DNA of 26,637 nt from a virus: positions 1 to 26,637 of IMG/VR virus record IMGVR_UViG_3300044953_000562; one strand, written 5' to 3'. The translations under genes and the position numbers were made by a program. Shown one piece after another: positions 1 to 26,637 of this stretch; position 1 is the stretch's first letter; each line of letters starts with the position of its first letter. Under the pieces are notes generated by a model. That model worked only from the letters and a program-made list of their open reading frames with translations, was not told the origin of the DNA and ran no database searches.

Positions 1-1
1 A

Positions 2-21
2 CGCCGCCCTAACGGGCGGCG
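2..21. other. GC-rich 8-bp hairpin at window edge
   Basis: Positions 2-9 (CGCCGCCC) and 14-21 (GGGCGGCG) are perfect reverse complements around a TAAC loop. No T-run follows on the + strand, and the - strand tract lies outside the window. It could be the tail of an upstream terminator or part of a packaging site. The sequence does not decide. Confidence 0.5.
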
Positions 22-73
22 GGTGCCCTCCCTCTGTCCAAAATCAATCCTCAAATCACTGCCCCAATCACCC

Positions 74-102
74 TTGCCCAACAAACCCCCCTCTCCTATA
101 CT
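74..102 (+). promoter_or_regulatory. Sigma70-like promoter for the head operon
   Basis: A TTGCCC -35-like hexamer (74-79) is separated by exactly 17 nt from a TATACT -10-like hexamer (97-102). The predicted transcription start is about 109-111, just ahead of the ATG at 114, so the message would be essentially leaderless. The same architecture (TTGCC box, 17-nt spacer) recurs at 17715-17743, which strengthens both calls. Confidence 0.6.
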
Positions 103-113
103 TCCTCTGTATT

Positions 114-17772: not shown

Positions 17773-18129
17773 ATGAACCTCGAAGAGATCAAGGATGCGC
17801 TTCGTGAAGTCGTGACCAGCATCGAGTCCCTCCAGGACGCCCTCGACGAGTACGAGGAGTGCGAGGACGACGAGTGCACCGAGTGCACCGGCGTTGACGA
17901 GACCGATGAAACCGACGACGAGGATGATGAGACCGACGATGACGACGTCTTCGTCGATCTCGGCACCCCGGCTCGTGACGAGTTCATCGACTCGATCGAG
18001 AAGGACTCTCTCGTCGACGGGGTCGAGATCCCCGACTTCATCGACGAGGATACGCTGACTGACCGTCAGGTCGTCCTCGTCGTCGACAAGGACTTCCTCG
18101 AGCAGATCCGTGAACTGATTGTGGAGTAG
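17773..18129 (+). CDS. Small, highly acidic protein
   Basis: 118 residues, first gene after its own promoter, with Shine-Dalgarno GGAG (17761-17764) at 8 nt. The N-terminus is an amphipathic helix (EEIKDALREVVTSIESLQDAL). Residues about 25-62 are an Asp/Glu/Thr low-complexity stretch with three Cys, and the C-terminus is again acidic and helical (VDKDFLEQIRELI). Charge is strongly negative throughout. No family recognised. Such proteins may act as chaperones, DNA mimics or flexible structural linkers. Its position ahead of the appendage genes does not choose between these. Confidence 0.75.
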   Translation: MNLEEIKDALREVVTSIESLQDALDEYEECEDDECTECTGVDETDETDDEDDETDDDDVFVDLGTPARDEFIDSIEKDSLVDGVEIPDFIDEDTLTDRQVVLVVDKDFLEQIRELIVE

Positions 18130-21179: not shown

Positions 21180-22020
21180 TACGAAGGAAATCTCGACGTC
21201 AGGCTCGCGACCGGTCGAACTCTATGAATTCACACTAGGAAGTGACGCTTATCGGTACGTGGCCTCCGATAATACCTACTCCTACCTCACCCAGACCTAC
21301 TACCCGACTCAGATCACGCGGTCCTCGTCGGTCACTGGGCGAGAGGAGAGCCAGGAGAACCTCTCCGTCACGCTGCCCCGGCAGAACGCGATCGTCAGTC
21401 GCTACCTGCAGAACCCGCCGGGCGTCAAGTGTGTGTTGAACATCTATCGGACGCAGATCGGGGAGACGGACGGCATCCTCGTCTTCAAGGGGCTGGCCAA
21501 GGCCATCGTGTTCTCTGCTGACGGGGCCTCGGCCACCATCACGTGTGCCCCGCTTACCGTCGGCCTGTCCCGGCTGATCCCTCGCTACACCTACTCGACG
21601 CCCTGCAATTTTGTCCTGTTTGATAGCAATTGCGGCGTGAAGGAGTCGAAGTTCACCCGAAGGCTCCGGATCACGGCGGTGAACGGTACGACGCTGACGA
21701 TCGCTCTCGCGGGCGGCCTCGGGAACAACTACTACAAGGGCGGTTGGCTCTCCGTCCCGGACACCGGGGAGCATGTGCTGATCCTTCGGCAGACCGGTGA
21801 TAGCGTGGGCATCCTTCGCCCAGTGAACGGGCTGGAAGTCGGTGCTTTGGTGGACATGAAGGCCGGGTGTCCACACACGATGACCGCTTGCAACACGAAG
21901 TTCAACAACGCTGCAAACTACGGTGGCTTCGCCTACGTGCCGACGCGGAACGTGTTCCGGAGCGGCATCCAACAGAATCCTGATGAAACCCCTCGCGGGC
22001 GTGGAGGCATCGGCTACTAA
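21169..22020 (+). CDS. Tail tip/hub-associated protein (DUF2163/BR0599, gpL-like)
   Basis: 283 residues. The N-terminal half fits DUF2163 (VELYEFTLGSDAYRYVASD, YYPTQITRSS, ENLSVTLPRQNAI, ITCAPLTVGLSRLIPRY). The C-terminal part fits the BR0599 pattern (YSTPCNFVLFDSNCG, AGCPHTMTACNTKFNN, YGGFAYVPTRNVF). Cys146, 155, 234 and 241 are spaced 9 and 7, like the four iron-sulfur ligands I recall for lambda gpL, so a bound cluster is plausible. These proteins join the distal tail ring to the hub. The start overlaps the previous gene by 11 nt, and the stop shares a base with the hub ATG. Confidence 0.8.
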   Translation: MTFDTKEISTSGSRPVELYEFTLGSDAYRYVASDNTYSYLTQTYYPTQITRSSSVTGREESQENLSVTLPRQNAIVSRYLQNPPGVKCVLNIYRTQIGETDGILVFKGLAKAIVFSADGASATITCAPLTVGLSRLIPRYTYSTPCNFVLFDSNCGVKESKFTRRLRITAVNGTTLTIALAGGLGNNYYKGGWLSVPDTGEHVLILRQTGDSVGILRPVNGLEVGALVDMKAGCPHTMTACNTKFNNAANYGGFAYVPTRNVFRSGIQQNPDETPRGRGGIGY

Positions 22021-25000
22021 TGGGATTCTTCTTCACACTGTTCTTGTGGGGCTTCTTCTTCCTGCTCTCGGAGCTTCTGCGTCCGAAGCCCAAGCAGGAG
22101 CAGGCCCGCCCCGCCGGTCTGGGCGACTTCAACTTCCCGACGGCCTCTGAGACTCGCCACATCCCGCTCGTCTGGGGTACGGTGAAGATTGACGGCCCGA
22201 ACGTCGTGTGGTACGGCGACCTGCAGAAGATTCCCATCACGAAGAAGGTGAAGACCGGCCTCTTCTCTTCGAAGACCGTCGTGGTGGGGTATTACTACTT
22301 CCTGGGTGTGCAATTCGCCCTCTGCCGAGGGGTGGCCGAGGAACTGCGTCGCATCTGGGTGGACGAACGCATCCTCTACGATGGCACGGTGAGCGGTTCA
22401 CTCGAGCACAACGAAACGGTCAGCATCAACCGACCGCTGTTCTTCGGCGGCACGGAGAACGGCACAGGGGGCCTTGTGGGACCGTTGCGTTACCTCAGCG
22501 GAACGACTCCTCAGGCGGCACCGACGTACCTCGCCGGCAAGCAGAACCCGACCACGGGCTACCCCGGAACGGCCTATGTCCTGCTAGAGCGGATGCTTCT
22601 TGGAACGTCCTCCAACCTGCCCCCCTGGGCGTTTGAGTTGCAGAAAATTCCGGAAGATCTCTCGTTCGCGGACCCCGACGGTACGGTGGATCTGAACTTC
22701 GATGTGAACCCGCCAAGCACGGAAGATACCTACACTGCTCCGGAAAACTTCACGACTCGCGGGACGGTCACCATCCGGACTTACGACAACGGTGCATTCG
22801 TAGACGGTGACATCATCACGGTTACCGTCAACGGCACAGTGGTCCGCGACTACTACACGTTGCCTAGCCCGGCTTCGCCCGACATCCTCGACATCACGCA
22901 ATACCTTCTGCCCTACCAGCAGAATGAGATCACCGTCTACGCCCACAACGAAGGCGGCGTTGGGCCCAGGAACACGACGCAGTTCGATCTGCTGGACGAA
23001 GACGGTTCGGAGATCACTGGGCGATTCAACCTGCTCCCCCTCGATACCGGCTACCTGTATTTCAACTGGTATCCGGAAGTCCCCTCGTCCACGATTGACT
23101 ACGGCGACGGCGTGCTGGACGCCAACCCCATCTACGTCCTCTGGGAGATCATGACGAACTCCGACTGGGGGCTGGGGCTGCCTACCTCGGACATCGACCG
23201 GTCGAGCTTCCTCGTGGCGGCGGCTACCTGCACCGAAGAACTCAACGGCTTCTCTCTCATCCTGGATAGCCAGCGGGAAGCCTACGACCTGATCGAGGAG
23301 ATCCAGCGGCAGGTCGACGGCGTCGTCTTCATCTCGCCCCGAACGGGCAAGTGGAAGATCAAACTGATCCGCAACGACTACGTCGTCGACGATCTGGTCG
23401 AACTGAACGAAAGCAACATCCTCGAGATCAAGGACTACACCAAGGGCACGATCGAGGATACGACGAACGAAGTCCGGGCGGGGTACTCCCGCCGGGTCGA
23501 CTTCTATCAGGAGAGCTTCATTGTCGCTCAGGACTCGGCCAACATCAGGGCCCAGGGGGAAGTCGTCTCTACGACGATCCAGTTCCCCGGCGTGAAGAAC
23601 TCGCACCTTGCGTCGAAGCTCGCCTGGCGGGAACTGCGGCTCCTGAGCTACCCGCTGGCGAAGGCTACGCTCCGCTTGAATCGGTCGATGTACCTGCTCG
23701 AGCCGGGGCAGGCGGTCCGCTGGTCTGACCCTCTCCTGGGCTTCACCAACCTCGTCATGCGGGTGACTCGCATCGACTACGGGTCGCCCAGTGACGCTTC
23801 GATTGAGGTCAGTCTGATCCAGGACATCTTCGGTCTCGACGAAGCGTCGTACGATGATCCGCCGGATGGGGAATGGGAGAACCCAACCGAACGTCAACCG
23901 GAAGACGTCGATCTCGTTGATCAGGTGGTATTCGAGGCTCCCTACGCGATGTGTCGCGTCGAGGGTGTGTCGATCGCTCGCGTCTGGTTCGGGGCTCGCA
24001 GTTCTTCGCAGTACATGATCGGCAAGACCGATGCCGACACGGCGGTCGGCGAAGTGAACGCCTCGATGCTGACGCTGCAGTTGTCGGCGGCCCTGAACGC
24101 CTCGGACACGAGCTTCACGGCGTTGGCCTCGCCCGATACGGCGGCGGACGTCGACGCGAGAGGGACGTTCGTTGTTTCGTCGACTCAGAACGGCGAAGAA
24201 CTCCTTCAACTCGTTCTCGTCGATCAGGAGTTCATGCTCGTCAACTCGATGGTGAACTCCGCTGGCAACTTCGCCTTCACGGGCGTCACTCGTGGCGTAC
24301 TGGACAGCGTGCCGACGACTCACTCAGCCTATGCTCGCGTCCACCTACTGTTCACGGGCGGCAACCTCACGACCAAGGCGTATGAGGGCAACGAAGTCCT
24401 CGACTTCCGTATCTGCCCCGTCTCCGCTGGCGAAGCCCTGGACTATGCCTCGGCGACCTCGAACTCCCTCACGCTCCAGAACCGGGCGGTCCGTCCCTAC
24501 CCGCCGGTCGACCCCGTCGTCAACTCGGTCAGTTGGCCTTCCTCGGTAAACGCCAACACCGGCCTGAACGTGTCGTTCACTCGTCGCGACTACCTGGGCA
24601 CGAACGAAGTCACGCGGGCGACGACGAGTGCCTTCCCTGGCTCCACCGAATACCGGTGCCGCGTCCTAACTGATGGCGTGGAGCGGTTCACGACGGCCTG
24701 GAACAGCGGGGCGGCCAGCATCGACGTCTATCGTTCAAGGGTGCTCCGCTACACTTCAGGTGCCCTGCCGACGAACATCACGTGGGAGATCGCGACGAAG
24801 CACACCTTCGGCGGTTCGCCCATAGAGGCTCTTCAAAAGCTGACCCACACCGCAACGTACACTGACAGCGAGCTCTCCAACGACACCAACATGGGAGTCC
24901 GGACGTCCGGTGTGGCGACAGCTTCGTGGGTTGTTCCTGACACCGGCACCTACGACTTCATCCTCGAGAGCTCGGCGTCCCTCGCGGTCGTGGTGGAAGC

Positions 25001-25187
25001 CCAGGTGAACGGCGGTGGCTGGTCGACCGTGATTACGTCGGGTGCGACGACCGGCACGCTGGCCCTCACGGCGGGCGATAGTCTGGCCATGCGGTTCACC
25101 GGCACGGCTGCTCGATCGGAGCTCCTCGTGCGAGCTCTCGCTCCCGTTAGCACTGCGGACGGATACGCCGTTTACTCTATCAGCTAG
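22020..25187 (+). CDS. Tail hub / host-recognition protein (gpJ/GTA-hub-like)
   Basis: 1055 residues, the last gene of the tail block. After a very hydrophobic N-terminus (residues 2-20) come the usual hub opening (ASETRHIPLVWGTVKIDGPNVVWYGD) and a domain with WVDERILYDG, LLERMLL and WAFELQKIP. A jelly-roll-like insert lies at about 220-335. The hub core follows (ANPIYVLWEIMTNSDWGLGLP, ATCTEELNGFSLILDSQREA, IQRQVDGVVFISPRTGKWKIKLIR, then ARLNRSMYLLEPGQAVRW). The C-terminal 400 residues are tandem beta domains, including a fibronectin-like part (YPPVDPVVNSVSWPSSV). Forms the tail-tip plug and probably receptor contact. Closest to Phage-tail_3/gpJ-type proteins by pattern. Confidence 0.85.
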   Translation: MGFFFTLFLWGFFFLLSELLRPKPKQEQARPAGLGDFNFPTASETRHIPLVWGTVKIDGPNVVWYGDLQKIPITKKVKTGLFSSKTVVVGYYYFLGVQFALCRGVAEELRRIWVDERILYDGTVSGSLEHNETVSINRPLFFGGTENGTGGLVGPLRYLSGTTPQAAPTYLAGKQNPTTGYPGTAYVLLERMLLGTSSNLPPWAFELQKIPEDLSFADPDGTVDLNFDVNPPSTEDTYTAPENFTTRGTVTIRTYDNGAFVDGDIITVTVNGTVVRDYYTLPSPASPDILDITQYLLPYQQNEITVYAHNEGGVGPRNTTQFDLLDEDGSEITGRFNLLPLDTGYLYFNWYPEVPSSTIDYGDGVLDANPIYVLWEIMTNSDWGLGLPTSDIDRSSFLVAAATCTEELNGFSLILDSQREAYDLIEEIQRQVDGVVFISPRTGKWKIKLIRNDYVVDDLVELNESNILEIKDYTKGTIEDTTNEVRAGYSRRVDFYQESFIVAQDSANIRAQGEVVSTTIQFPGVKNSHLASKLAWRELRLLSYPLAKATLRLNRSMYLLEPGQAVRWSDPLLGFTNLVMRVTRIDYGSPSDASIEVSLIQDIFGLDEASYDDPPDGEWENPTERQPEDVDLVDQVVFEAPYAMCRVEGVSIARVWFGARSSSQYMIGKTDADTAVGEVNASMLTLQLSAALNASDTSFTALASPDTAADVDARGTFVVSSTQNGEELLQLVLVDQEFMLVNSMVNSAGNFAFTGVTRGVLDSVPTTHSAYARVHLLFTGGNLTTKAYEGNEVLDFRICPVSAGEALDYASATSNSLTLQNRAVRPYPPVDPVVNSVSWPSSVNANTGLNVSFTRRDYLGTNEVTRATTSAFPGSTEYRCRVLTDGVERFTTAWNSGAASIDVYRSRVLRYTSGALPTNITWEIATKHTFGGSPIEALQKLTHTATYTDSELSNDTNMGVRTSGVATASWVVPDTGTYDFILESSASLAVVVEAQVNGGGWSTVITSGATTGTLALTAGDSLAMRFTGTAARSELLVRALAPVSTADGYAVYSIS

Positions 25188-25191
25188 TGAT

Positions 25192-25450
25192 CTGAGCAAA
25201 CTGAGCAAGATCTGAGTCAACGTAAAGGGCCTTTCCATAACTACTTACAACAATTTGACTCAGTTGCTTAGTTGCTCAGCCCTGAACCCTAAACTTGTAC
25301 CCCGGCGACCCGCTTGCCTCCCCCTTTTCGATCTGAGTAGACTAAGCAACTGAGTCAGGCGTTTCTAAGTACCTGCCACTTAGTTACTTAGAGCTAATAC
25401 TCTCTCTTCCAAATAATAAATAGATCTGAGTAGACTGAGCAAACCTGAGG
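25192..25450. repeat. Clustered CTGAGYAA-type repeat array (candidate origin or operators)
   Basis: The gene-free stretch 25188-25461 holds about fourteen copies of an 8-bp unit close to CTGAGCAA/CTAAGCAA/CTGAGTCA. Cluster 1 (+): 25192, 25201, 25212. Cluster 2 (inverted): 25256-25263, 25264-25271, 25272-25279. Cluster 3 (+): 25333, 25342, 25350, with weaker inverted units at 25376-25391. Cluster 4 (+): 25426, 25435, 25445. Within a cluster units are 8-11 bp apart, about one helical turn, and clusters 1-3 end in CTGAGTCA. Clusters 1, 3 and 4 start GATCTGAG. Between clusters lie A/T-rich tracts (for example 25405-25425). This layout fits iterons of a replication origin or multiple operators for a phage regulator. 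Confidence 0.82.
25314..25343 (+). promoter_or_regulatory. Possible weak promoter inside the repeat array
   Basis: TTGCCT (25314-25319) and TAGACT (25338-25343) are 18 nt apart, reusing the TTGCC box of the other two promoters. The -10-like box lies inside repeat cluster 3, so a repeat-binding protein would occlude or modulate it. The -10 match is only 4 of 6. Confidence 0.35.
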
Positions 25451-25461
25451 TTTTTCAAGCT

Positions 25462-25830
25462 ATGAAACCCATTCCCAAGAGCGTCTACCTTTCTGGGCCC
25501 ATGCGGCACTACCCCTACTACAACGCCAAGGCGTTTGACAGCCTTGCAGGCCCCCTCCGGGCGGACGGGTGGGCCGTGGTCTCCCCCGTAGACCTGGACC
25601 GTGCAGACGGCTTCGAGCCGCTGGCGATGCCCCCCGATTCGGACTGGTCGCAGGTGCCCTACATGGGCCTCACGCTGCGGGAGCTCGTCGCCCGTGATGT
25701 TGAGGCTCTCCTTACCTGCGAGTACATCCTGATGCTCTACGGCTGGGAGAACTCCGTTGGAGCGAGGGCTGAGCTCGCCGTCGCGGAATTCGCTGGCCTG
25801 CTTGTCCGATACCAGCGAGACATAAAATAG
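25462..25830 (+). CDS. DUF4406/nucleoside deoxyribosyltransferase-like protein
   Basis: 122 residues from ATG 25462; TGAGG (25446-25450), part of the last repeat unit, is a distant Shine-Dalgarno. The sequence follows the DUF4406 group of the nucleoside 2-deoxyribosyltransferase superfamily: VYLSGPMRHYPYYNAKAF near the N-terminus, LRADGWAVVSPVDLDR, LRELVARDVEALLTCEYILMLYGWE, then NSVGARAELAVAEFAGL (SxGAxxE, the expected catalytic Glu region). Members act on nucleotides or nucleosides, but the phage substrate is unknown. It is the first gene after the repeat array and precedes a helicase, consistent with DNA metabolism. Confidence 0.75.
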   Translation: MKPIPKSVYLSGPMRHYPYYNAKAFDSLAGPLRADGWAVVSPVDLDRADGFEPLAMPPDSDWSQVPYMGLTLRELVARDVEALLTCEYILMLYGWENSVGARAELAVAEFAGLLVRYQRDIK

Positions 25831-25834
25831 AGGC

Positions 25835-26637
25835 ATGTACTACAAGACGAAGCCTCTTCGCCACCAACAAGAAGAGGTCGAAAAACGTGGAAGTTGGCCA
25901 GCGGCGGCTCTGCTATGGGACGCTGGCGTAGGAAAGACCAAGACGACGCTGGACAACGCAGCCTTTCTATTCCTAGACGGGAAGATCGACACGCTTGTCG
26001 TCGTCGCTCCGCCGGGGTTGGACTACAACTGGCTCGCCAGCCAGGCCCCGCAGCATCTCGCCTGTCTGTATGAGGGCTACGTTTTCTCTTCGTCGAAAGC
26101 TCGGCTGAAGTCTTACGAAAACACGAAGAAGTGGCTGAAGACCTTCCCCCGGAAGGAGAAGTTGCTGGTCGTCGCGATGTCGTACGACTCCGTCCTGACC
26201 GAGGCGGGACACTCGCTGATCGAGTGGCTTCTCCATAACCGCGTGTGTATGCTCGTCTTGGACGAGTCCCAGAAGGTCAAGAACCCAGGTGCGAAGAGGA
26301 CGAAGCGGCTCGTACCTATGGGCAGGTACGCGGCCTATCGCCGCATTCTTAGCTGGACGCAGGGCTCGGAGTGTCCCTTCGAGCACTACGCCCCCTTCAA
26401 GTTCCTCGATGAGGAATTCTGGAAGGCTCGAGGAATCGGCTCCTACGCTGGCTTTCAGGTTCGCTACGGTGAGTTTCGACCCCTATTTGTCCCCGCCGCT
26501 GGCAGGACGATACAGATACCTAGCGGCTACCGCAATCTGCCAGAGCTCAAGACGCACCTGTCCGCCCTGGCAACGTGGGTATTGAAATCTGAGGTGCTGG
26601 ATCTTCCGCCCAAGACCTACACTCGCATTCGTCACCC
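25835..26637 (+). CDS. SNF2-type helicase/ATPase, N-terminal part (cut by window end)
   Basis: The frame from ATG 25835 stays open to the window end (267 codons). An in-frame TAA (25823-25825) lies just upstream and there is no alternative earlier start. Seen: LRHQQEEVEKR (a Q-motif-like opening), Walker A DAGVGKT (29-35), VVVAPPGLDYNW (motif Ia), Walker B LVLDESQKVKNPGAKRTK (DESQ 143-146), and a motif III region RRILSWTQGSE (169-179) where the family usually has LTGTP. The second RecA-like domain lies beyond the window. Phage members of this superfamily act in replication, recombination or transcription. The AGAGG ahead of the ATG is unusually close (1 nt), so initiation may depend on coupling with the upstream gene. 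Confidence 0.85.
   Translation, partial: MYYKTKPLRHQQEEVEKRGSWPAAALLWDAGVGKTKTTLDNAAFLFLDGKIDTLVVVAPPGLDYNWLASQAPQHLACLYEGYVFSSSKARLKSYENTKKWLKTFPRKEKLLVVAMSYDSVLTEAGHSLIEWLLHNRVCMLVLDESQKVKNPGAKRTKRLVPMGRYAAYRRILSWTQGSECPFEHYAPFKFLDEEFWKARGIGSYAGFQVRYGEFRPLFVPAAGRTIQIPSGYRNLPELKTHLSALATWVLKSEVLDLPPKTYTRIRH

Follow-up and report, generated by a model that had tools for sequence, protein, structure and literature searches.

A Candidate Paired Replication-Origin-like Element at the Structural–Replication Gene Boundary of Tailed Phages

The Repeat Element and Its Genomic Context

The IMG/VR virus record IMGVR_UViG_3300044953_000562 consists of 26,637 bases, and this whole stretch of DNA is referred to here as the window. 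All genes in the window are located on the + strand and encode, in order, a TerS-like protein (terminase small subunit), TerL (terminase large subunit), portal, head and tail proteins, followed by a non-coding gap of 274 bp, a DUF4406-like protein and an SNF2-like DNA helicase. The gap, at 25188-25461, contains clusters of short repeats in opposed orientations together with an AT-rich segment, and from sequence comparison it is interpreted here as probably being one of a pair of replication-origin-like, putative initiator-binding elements. A first-pass annotation, made from the letters of the window alone, had placed the repeats exactly where structural genes give way to DNA-metabolism genes. 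This position holds, with the tail gene ending at 25187 and the DUF4406-like gene starting at 25462, followed by the SNF2-like helicase gene. The gap has a GC content of 44%, compared with about 60% in its flanks. The parts of the element and the genes around it are as follows.

25188..25461, no strand: whole non-coding origin-like element, from the tail-gene stop to the DUF4406 start, marked by repeat density and low GC
25192..25219, + strand: cluster 1, CTGAGCAA, CTGAGCAA, CTGAGTCA
25256..25279, - strand: cluster 2, inverted; CTGAGCAA, CTAAGCAA, CTGAGTCA as read on the - strand
25333..25357, + strand: cluster 3, CTGAGTAG, CTAAGCAA, CTGAGTCA
25365..25391, no single strand: degenerate extra cluster, mostly inverted, with a + unit at 25365 and - units at 25376 and 25384
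25394..25425, no strand: AT-rich segment (75% AT) between the last clusters, a candidate DNA unwinding element
25426..25449, + strand: cluster 4, CTGAGTAG, CTGAGCAA and a partial CTGAG
1..113, + strand: left contig end, upstream of the TerS-like gene (phrog_4044); the second copy of the element found in relatives lies farther upstream
3-740, + strand: TerS-like gene (phrog_4044, E 1e-22)
577-2736, + strand: TerL
22020..25187, + strand: tail protein, the final gene of the structural module (phrog_1101, E 2e-191)
25462..25830, + strand: DUF4406/nucleoside 2-deoxyribosyltransferase-like gene (phrog_355, E 6e-22; PF14359, E 1e-14)
25835..26635, + strand: SNF2-like DNA helicase, truncated by the contig end (phrog_62, E 3e-35); the anchor gene for the conserved position

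The repeat array is strongly concentrated in the gap. The unit CTRAGYMR occurs 12 times at 8/8 positions in 25188-25461, where 0.05 are expected, and 5 times in the other 26,363 bases, so that it is not scattered at a background rate. When at least 7/8 positions are required, 16 units are found inside (two of them mutually overlapping; 1.56 expected) and 150 in the rest of the window. Independently of this unit, 85 pairs of 9-mers with at most one mismatch, in both orientations, were counted in the gap, compared with about 10 in shuffled sequence, and this number was reached in 0/200 dinucleotide shuffles. In a location-free scan of repeat density across the window, 25201-25500 ranked second, behind coding repeats at 17801-18100. 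These coding repeats belong to a small acidic repetitive protein with D/E and T runs (17773-18129), whose gene accounts for the top-ranking DNA repeat density.

The four clusters reported in the first-pass annotation, with cluster 2 inverted and CTGAGTCA at the end of clusters 1-3, were all recovered, and a degenerate fifth cluster can be added, in which unit 25384 is strict and units 25365 and 25376 each have one mismatch. The spacing of about one helical turn is true only loosely, since units on the same strand within a cluster are 8, 9 and 11 bp apart, mostly 8-9. As in origins of the iteron type, the units are tandem, regularly spaced and of one orientation within each cluster; the orientation alternates among clusters. 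Together, clusters 2 and 3 form an inverted repeat of 31 nt (81%). Among all 60-bp duplexes of the window, the one with the lowest nearest-neighbour stability starts at 25379 within the element, and the direct repeats adjoin the AT-rich candidate unwinding segment, as in SPP1-type origins. No Rfam family scored above the gathering score, the matches being at chance level only, and no terminators or tRNAs were found. A consensus scan restricted to promoters of the sigma-70 type gave 0 sites in 25000-25900.

The Same Place in Other Phages

Close DNA relatives of the window were found neither in the phage collection nor in IMG/VR via the tail protein, nor with two array patterns. Among more distant phages, the Mesyanzhinovviridae Aergia, Lucjan, Sonora and FP1 have TerL proteins with 54-56% identity to that of the window, and the window helicase aligns with the helicases of eight phages at 33-39% identity. 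In this alignment, SWTQGSECP in the window helicase (25835-26635) stands opposite SGTP or TGTP, a few residues and GP in the eight relatives; the ATPase motif of the window helicase may therefore be altered.

The helicase is the first gene behind a large gap at the junction of tail or lysis genes and replication genes in Lucjan, AIIMS-Plu-RaNi, Sonora, FP1 (the record of which begins just ahead of its gap), Aergia, TM26 and Pam3, and all seven gaps contain repeated words in both orientations. The repeat total was reached in 0/200 shuffles for the gaps of Lucjan, AIIMS, Pam3, Sonora, FP1 and Aergia, and the signal was weak in TM26 (11/200) and Simon (10/200). Arrays of units of about 9 bp ahead of the same SNF2-like helicase are present in Mesyanzhinovviridae, in Pam3, in TM26 and in many IMG/VR contigs. 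The IMG/VR loci comprise the best 80 of 508 relatives. Gaps were called with a crude open-reading-frame rule, which gave a gap of at least 150 bp at 55/100 loci; 42 nonredundant gaps including that of the window were kept. Some of these are in fact coding sequence or for other reasons not genuine gaps; 20/42 exceeded all 40 shuffles in a copy-number test.

Homologues of the helicase that are encoded behind a DNA polymerase or another gene have no large gap between tail and replication genes (AAT-1, QDWS359, DoCa6, JG024, RDJL Phi 1, Carpasina, AMA1, phiVC8 and Barton), and the strict tandem pattern, the only one applied here, matched 1/7 whole records among these phages. In the IMG/VR loci L004 and L005, the helicase start overlaps the preceding gene, and hence there is no gap or array.

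The repeat word itself follows a shared grammar. Typical clusters read CTGAGCAAaCTGAGCAAgatCTGAGTCA in the window and, in other gaps, GTAGAGTAA-GTAGAGTAA-GTAGAGGCA (L045), GTATGACAA-GTATGGTAA-GTATGGTCA (L056) and GTTAAGAAA-GTTAAGTAA-GTTAAG (L075). The first part of the unit varies from phage to phage, while an RAGYAA-like part is common (an NNNRAGYAA-like core), and the last unit often carries GTCA. Over 89 nonredundant loci, tandem RAGYAA pairs reach 0.60 and 0.31 per 250 bp in the two bins directly upstream of the helicase (500 bp in all), compared with 0.00-0.10 in other bins. At least one such pair is present at 30/89 loci, whereas three permuted control words occur as pairs at 6, 7 and 11 of 89 and do not rise ahead of the helicase. 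In addition, the spacing spectrum has its peak at 9 bp, with 89 pairs versus 10 in coding controls, after distances of 4-5 bp within units were set aside. The first-pass annotation had made its proposal depend on conservation in close relatives; in the distant phages compared here, architecture and place are conserved and the exact word is not.

A Second Copy near the Terminase Genes

Searches of whole records with the strict pattern matched 14/28 records, including sites far from the helicase. Whole genomes were compared for 19 phages, namely the six GenBank phages Lucjan, Pam3, FP1, TM26, Aergia and Sonora and 13 IMG/VR contigs; the final 333 bases of FP1 and the final 4,545 bases of G002 were left out of the scans. 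Most relatives carry a second copy ahead of their terminase genes, which is beyond what the single window could reveal. In FP1, Aergia, Sonora and Pam3 this copy precedes the annotated TerS gene, and in Lucjan it precedes TerL and an open reading frame that carries no annotation and is taken as TerS. A further unit-rich peak is present 0.9-3.3 kb upstream of TerL in 13/17 genomes in which TerL was located. This peak is clear-cut in 9 genomes, as judged by eye (at least 2x the next peak), and weaker in G005, G019, Sonora and Aergia.

With blastn, a diverged second copy near TerL was detected in 10/17 genomes; another copy is present in G017, whose TerL was not located. Copy-to-copy identity is 99.5% over 216 bp in G018, 98.6% over 69 bp in FP1, 95% over 107 bp in G016, 91.6% over 225 bp in Pam3, 82% over 161 bp in TM26 and 82% over 233 bp in Lucjan, where the copy is inverted; shorter pieces align in Sonora, G011, G009 and Aergia. 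The copies have the repeats and the AT-rich part in common, and the alignments end at least 60 bp before the helicase start in 11/11 of the genomes with blastn copies. The two elements are about 22-36 kb apart in the relatives. In the window, the element is 22 kb away from the terminase genes, and the contig begins 113 bases before the putative TerS start, so any second copy would lie off the contig.

Low duplex stability is likewise common among the relatives. In 16/19 genomes, the helicase-side element belongs to the three least stable independent sites (nearest-neighbour stability). The two elements take ranks 1 and 2 genome-wide in Lucjan, Pam3, FP1, TM26 and Aergia, and ranks 1 and 3 in Sonora. 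The exceptions are G002 and G006, which are off the pattern, and G007, in which the element ranks fifth.

Replication Proteins and Candidate Binders

The SNF2 helicase, gp33-like, gp34-like and Dda-like proteins, PolA and a primase-SF3 helicase are each encoded in 19/19 genomes. In a search of PDB sequences, the primase matched the phage primase-helicase structures 6k9c and 6k9e (E 3.5e-9), the gp34-like protein gave no match and the gp33-like protein gave chance-level matches only. Directly upstream of the primase-SF3 helicase, 13/19 genomes encode a small protein with two helix-turn-helix (HTH)-like domains, for example Aergia_0058 (L142:19831-20157). This tandem-HTH protein is a candidate regulator or initiator accessory. 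It is absent, by profile search, from six genomes that carry arrays, and was therefore rejected as a universal binder. The replication module of Aergia also contains DNA hypermodification genes, including an Amino acid:DNA transferase, 5-hmdU DNA kinases and Nmad5 (L142:8666-14119).

The first-pass annotation had stated that the dedicated binding protein is not in the window, and indeed no such gene was recognised there. The neighbours of the element are the tail, DUF4406 and SNF2-like helicase genes, and no initiator gene is located next to it.

Replication Origin versus Other Functions

The first-pass annotation had offered an iteron origin or a multi-operator switch as its best guesses. Of these, the origin is favoured, because the repeats adjoin the least stable duplex, the place is conserved, and the two copies share neither the promoter-proximal part nor, in Lucjan, their orientation. 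A probability of roughly 0.55 is assigned to the reading that the gap represents one of two paired replication-origin-like elements, comparable to oriL and oriR of SPP1. The units, the clusters and the unstable segment are present in the window, and the conserved place and the second copy in its relatives. The element also occurs together with an unrelated TerL, as in Pam3, whereas the replication proteins listed above are encoded in all 19 genomes. This anatomy, with tandem sites of the initiator type in opposed clusters, a meltable core, a promoter-proximal part spared in the duplication and one inverted copy, fits an origin or origins better than an operator. In such a mechanism, binding of a phage initiator to the tandem 8-9-bp units of the oppositely oriented clusters would lead to wrapping of the DNA and to melting of the AT-rich segment (25394-25425). 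The helicase and the primase, whose genes lie downstream, would then load, and replication would be initiated. The second copy upstream of the terminase genes, if present in this phage, would be a second origin; alternatively, it could act as a barrier to replication forks that triggers the change to concatemer synthesis, a role proposed for oriR of SPP1.

The main rival explanation is that both elements are operator arrays on which one phage regulator, such as the tandem-HTH protein, controls the replication and the terminase/structural operons. Each copy indeed lies directly upstream of the first gene in a co-directional module, the gene of a possible regulator stands beside the primase in most genomes, and the word TGGGYTA is found at a promoter-like position, at most 100 bp from the helicase start, in 12/41 gaps versus 0.35 in shuffles. 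In these gaps (e.g. L012, L036, L046 and L056), TGGGYTA is situated just upstream of the ribosome-binding site and is perhaps a phage promoter. However, TGGGYTA is absent at the window junction, where no sigma-70-type promoter was detected either, and -10-like words (7/41 gaps versus 3.9 in shuffles) show no clear enrichment. The duplicated part leaves out the gene-proximal stretch, Lucjan has its copy in inverted orientation, the six array-carrying genomes mentioned above lack the tandem-HTH protein, and a rank of first or second among unstable duplexes exceeds what an operator needs. Paired operators are therefore considered unlikely, though they deserve serious attention.

A role in packaging (pac) or in other terminase binding, for which the helicase-side copy would provide an additional site, would suit the copy just upstream of TerS in relatives and the description of Mesyanzhinovviridae as headful, circularly permuted phages (PMC11946847). 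Such a role is nevertheless improbable: Pam3 likewise carries an element pair of this kind in both places, although the TerL proteins of Pam3 and the window are unrelated (22% identity), and the element in the window is far from the terminase genes. Similarly, the presence of homologous copies, with short direct and inverted repeats, on both sides of the structural module could suggest a site for recombination, partition or attachment. This is very improbable: profile searches of the window proteins revealed no integrase or partition gene, and the order of modules, as far as annotated, is the same in Aergia with direct copies and in Lucjan with inverted copies. The least probable of these alternatives is an RNA element, in which the clusters form hairpins in the mRNA ahead of the replication operon. 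Only 1/200 shuffles folds as well as the + strand (z -3.0), in which clusters 2 and 3 pair, but opposed clusters of one word necessarily fold, and this explains the structure away. No Rfam family fits, the 9-bp tandem units within clusters and the AT-rich core would be left unexplained, and the inverted Lucjan copy would yield a different transcript.

Multiple observations weigh against an origin. The GC-skew check proposed in the first-pass annotation turned out negative, with no switch at either element and flat skew in six relatives. In addition, no DnaA-box-like site (TTWTNCACA-like, one mismatch allowed) is present in 25188-25461, and both copies precede operons, as operators would. A location-free repeat scan places the helicase-side element within the top four peaks in just 13/19 genomes. 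No second peak was found near TerL in four of 17 genomes (G002, G006, G012 and G015), and several others are not clear-cut. The RAGYAA core was picked after the gaps had been read, so its enrichment is not blind and is to be taken as a description with controls. As for the protein, no initiator was identified among the replication proteins of the 19 genomes: the tandem-HTH protein is not general, and in a Mantel comparison the distances of all replication proteins correlated about equally with array similarity (r 0.26-0.60), so that no binder is singled out.

Significance and Comparison with Known Replication Origins

No description of such an element was found in the open-licence literature searched, nor of the site and manner in which DNA synthesis begins in Mesyanzhinovviridae and related lytic phages. 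The available parts of the literature on Mesyanzhinovviridae-related phages make no mention of origin repeats, and those on an Ab18-like phage note AT-rich non-coding regions without a function (PMC5418858). The element is thus somewhat more probably than otherwise a paired iteron-like origin not described before in this literature. If true, this would provide precise 300-bp origin candidates in cultured phages of Pseudomonas, Stenotrophomonas, Bordetella, Rhizobium and Pseudanabaena, and it would open to direct testing how these origins are used, how theta replication gives way to concatemers and how initiator and DNA word co-evolve. More tentatively, a widespread and as yet undescribed class of paired origins could exist in tailed phages with SNF2-like and primase-SF3 helicases, in which the copies head the replication and terminase operons. 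The copies would be alike within a phage while the word drifts between phages, and one fast-evolving initiator could conceivably tie initiation, the concatemer switch and packaging to module boundaries.

The closest known system is SPP1, in which oriL and oriR are bound by gp38. There, oriR is located in an intergenic stretch of the late region and is about 12-13 kb away from oriL (PMC6316719, PMC3485210), whereas the two elements of the phages studied here are about 22-36 kb apart. Also, oriL lies inside gene 38 while the window element is intergenic, and the helicase of SPP1 is DnaB-like while these phages encode a primase-SF3 helicase. Opposed multi-unit clusters in which the word is specific to the phage are not known from SPP1.

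Plasmid and lambda iteron origins likewise consist of tandem short asymmetric units beside an AT-rich segment. They differ from the present element, in which the units are about 9 bp and arranged in opposed clusters of two or three, with no rep or O-like gene adjacent and no DnaA-box-like site. The satellite phage P4 has direct and inverted iterons at two places, ori and crr, which involve its alpha protein. As a small satellite, P4 has these places within a few kb of each other, but it shares with these phages iterons in both orientations at two places and a primase-SF3 helicase encoded in the genome. By analogy, the primase-SF3 helicase would be a candidate binder of the P4-alpha type.
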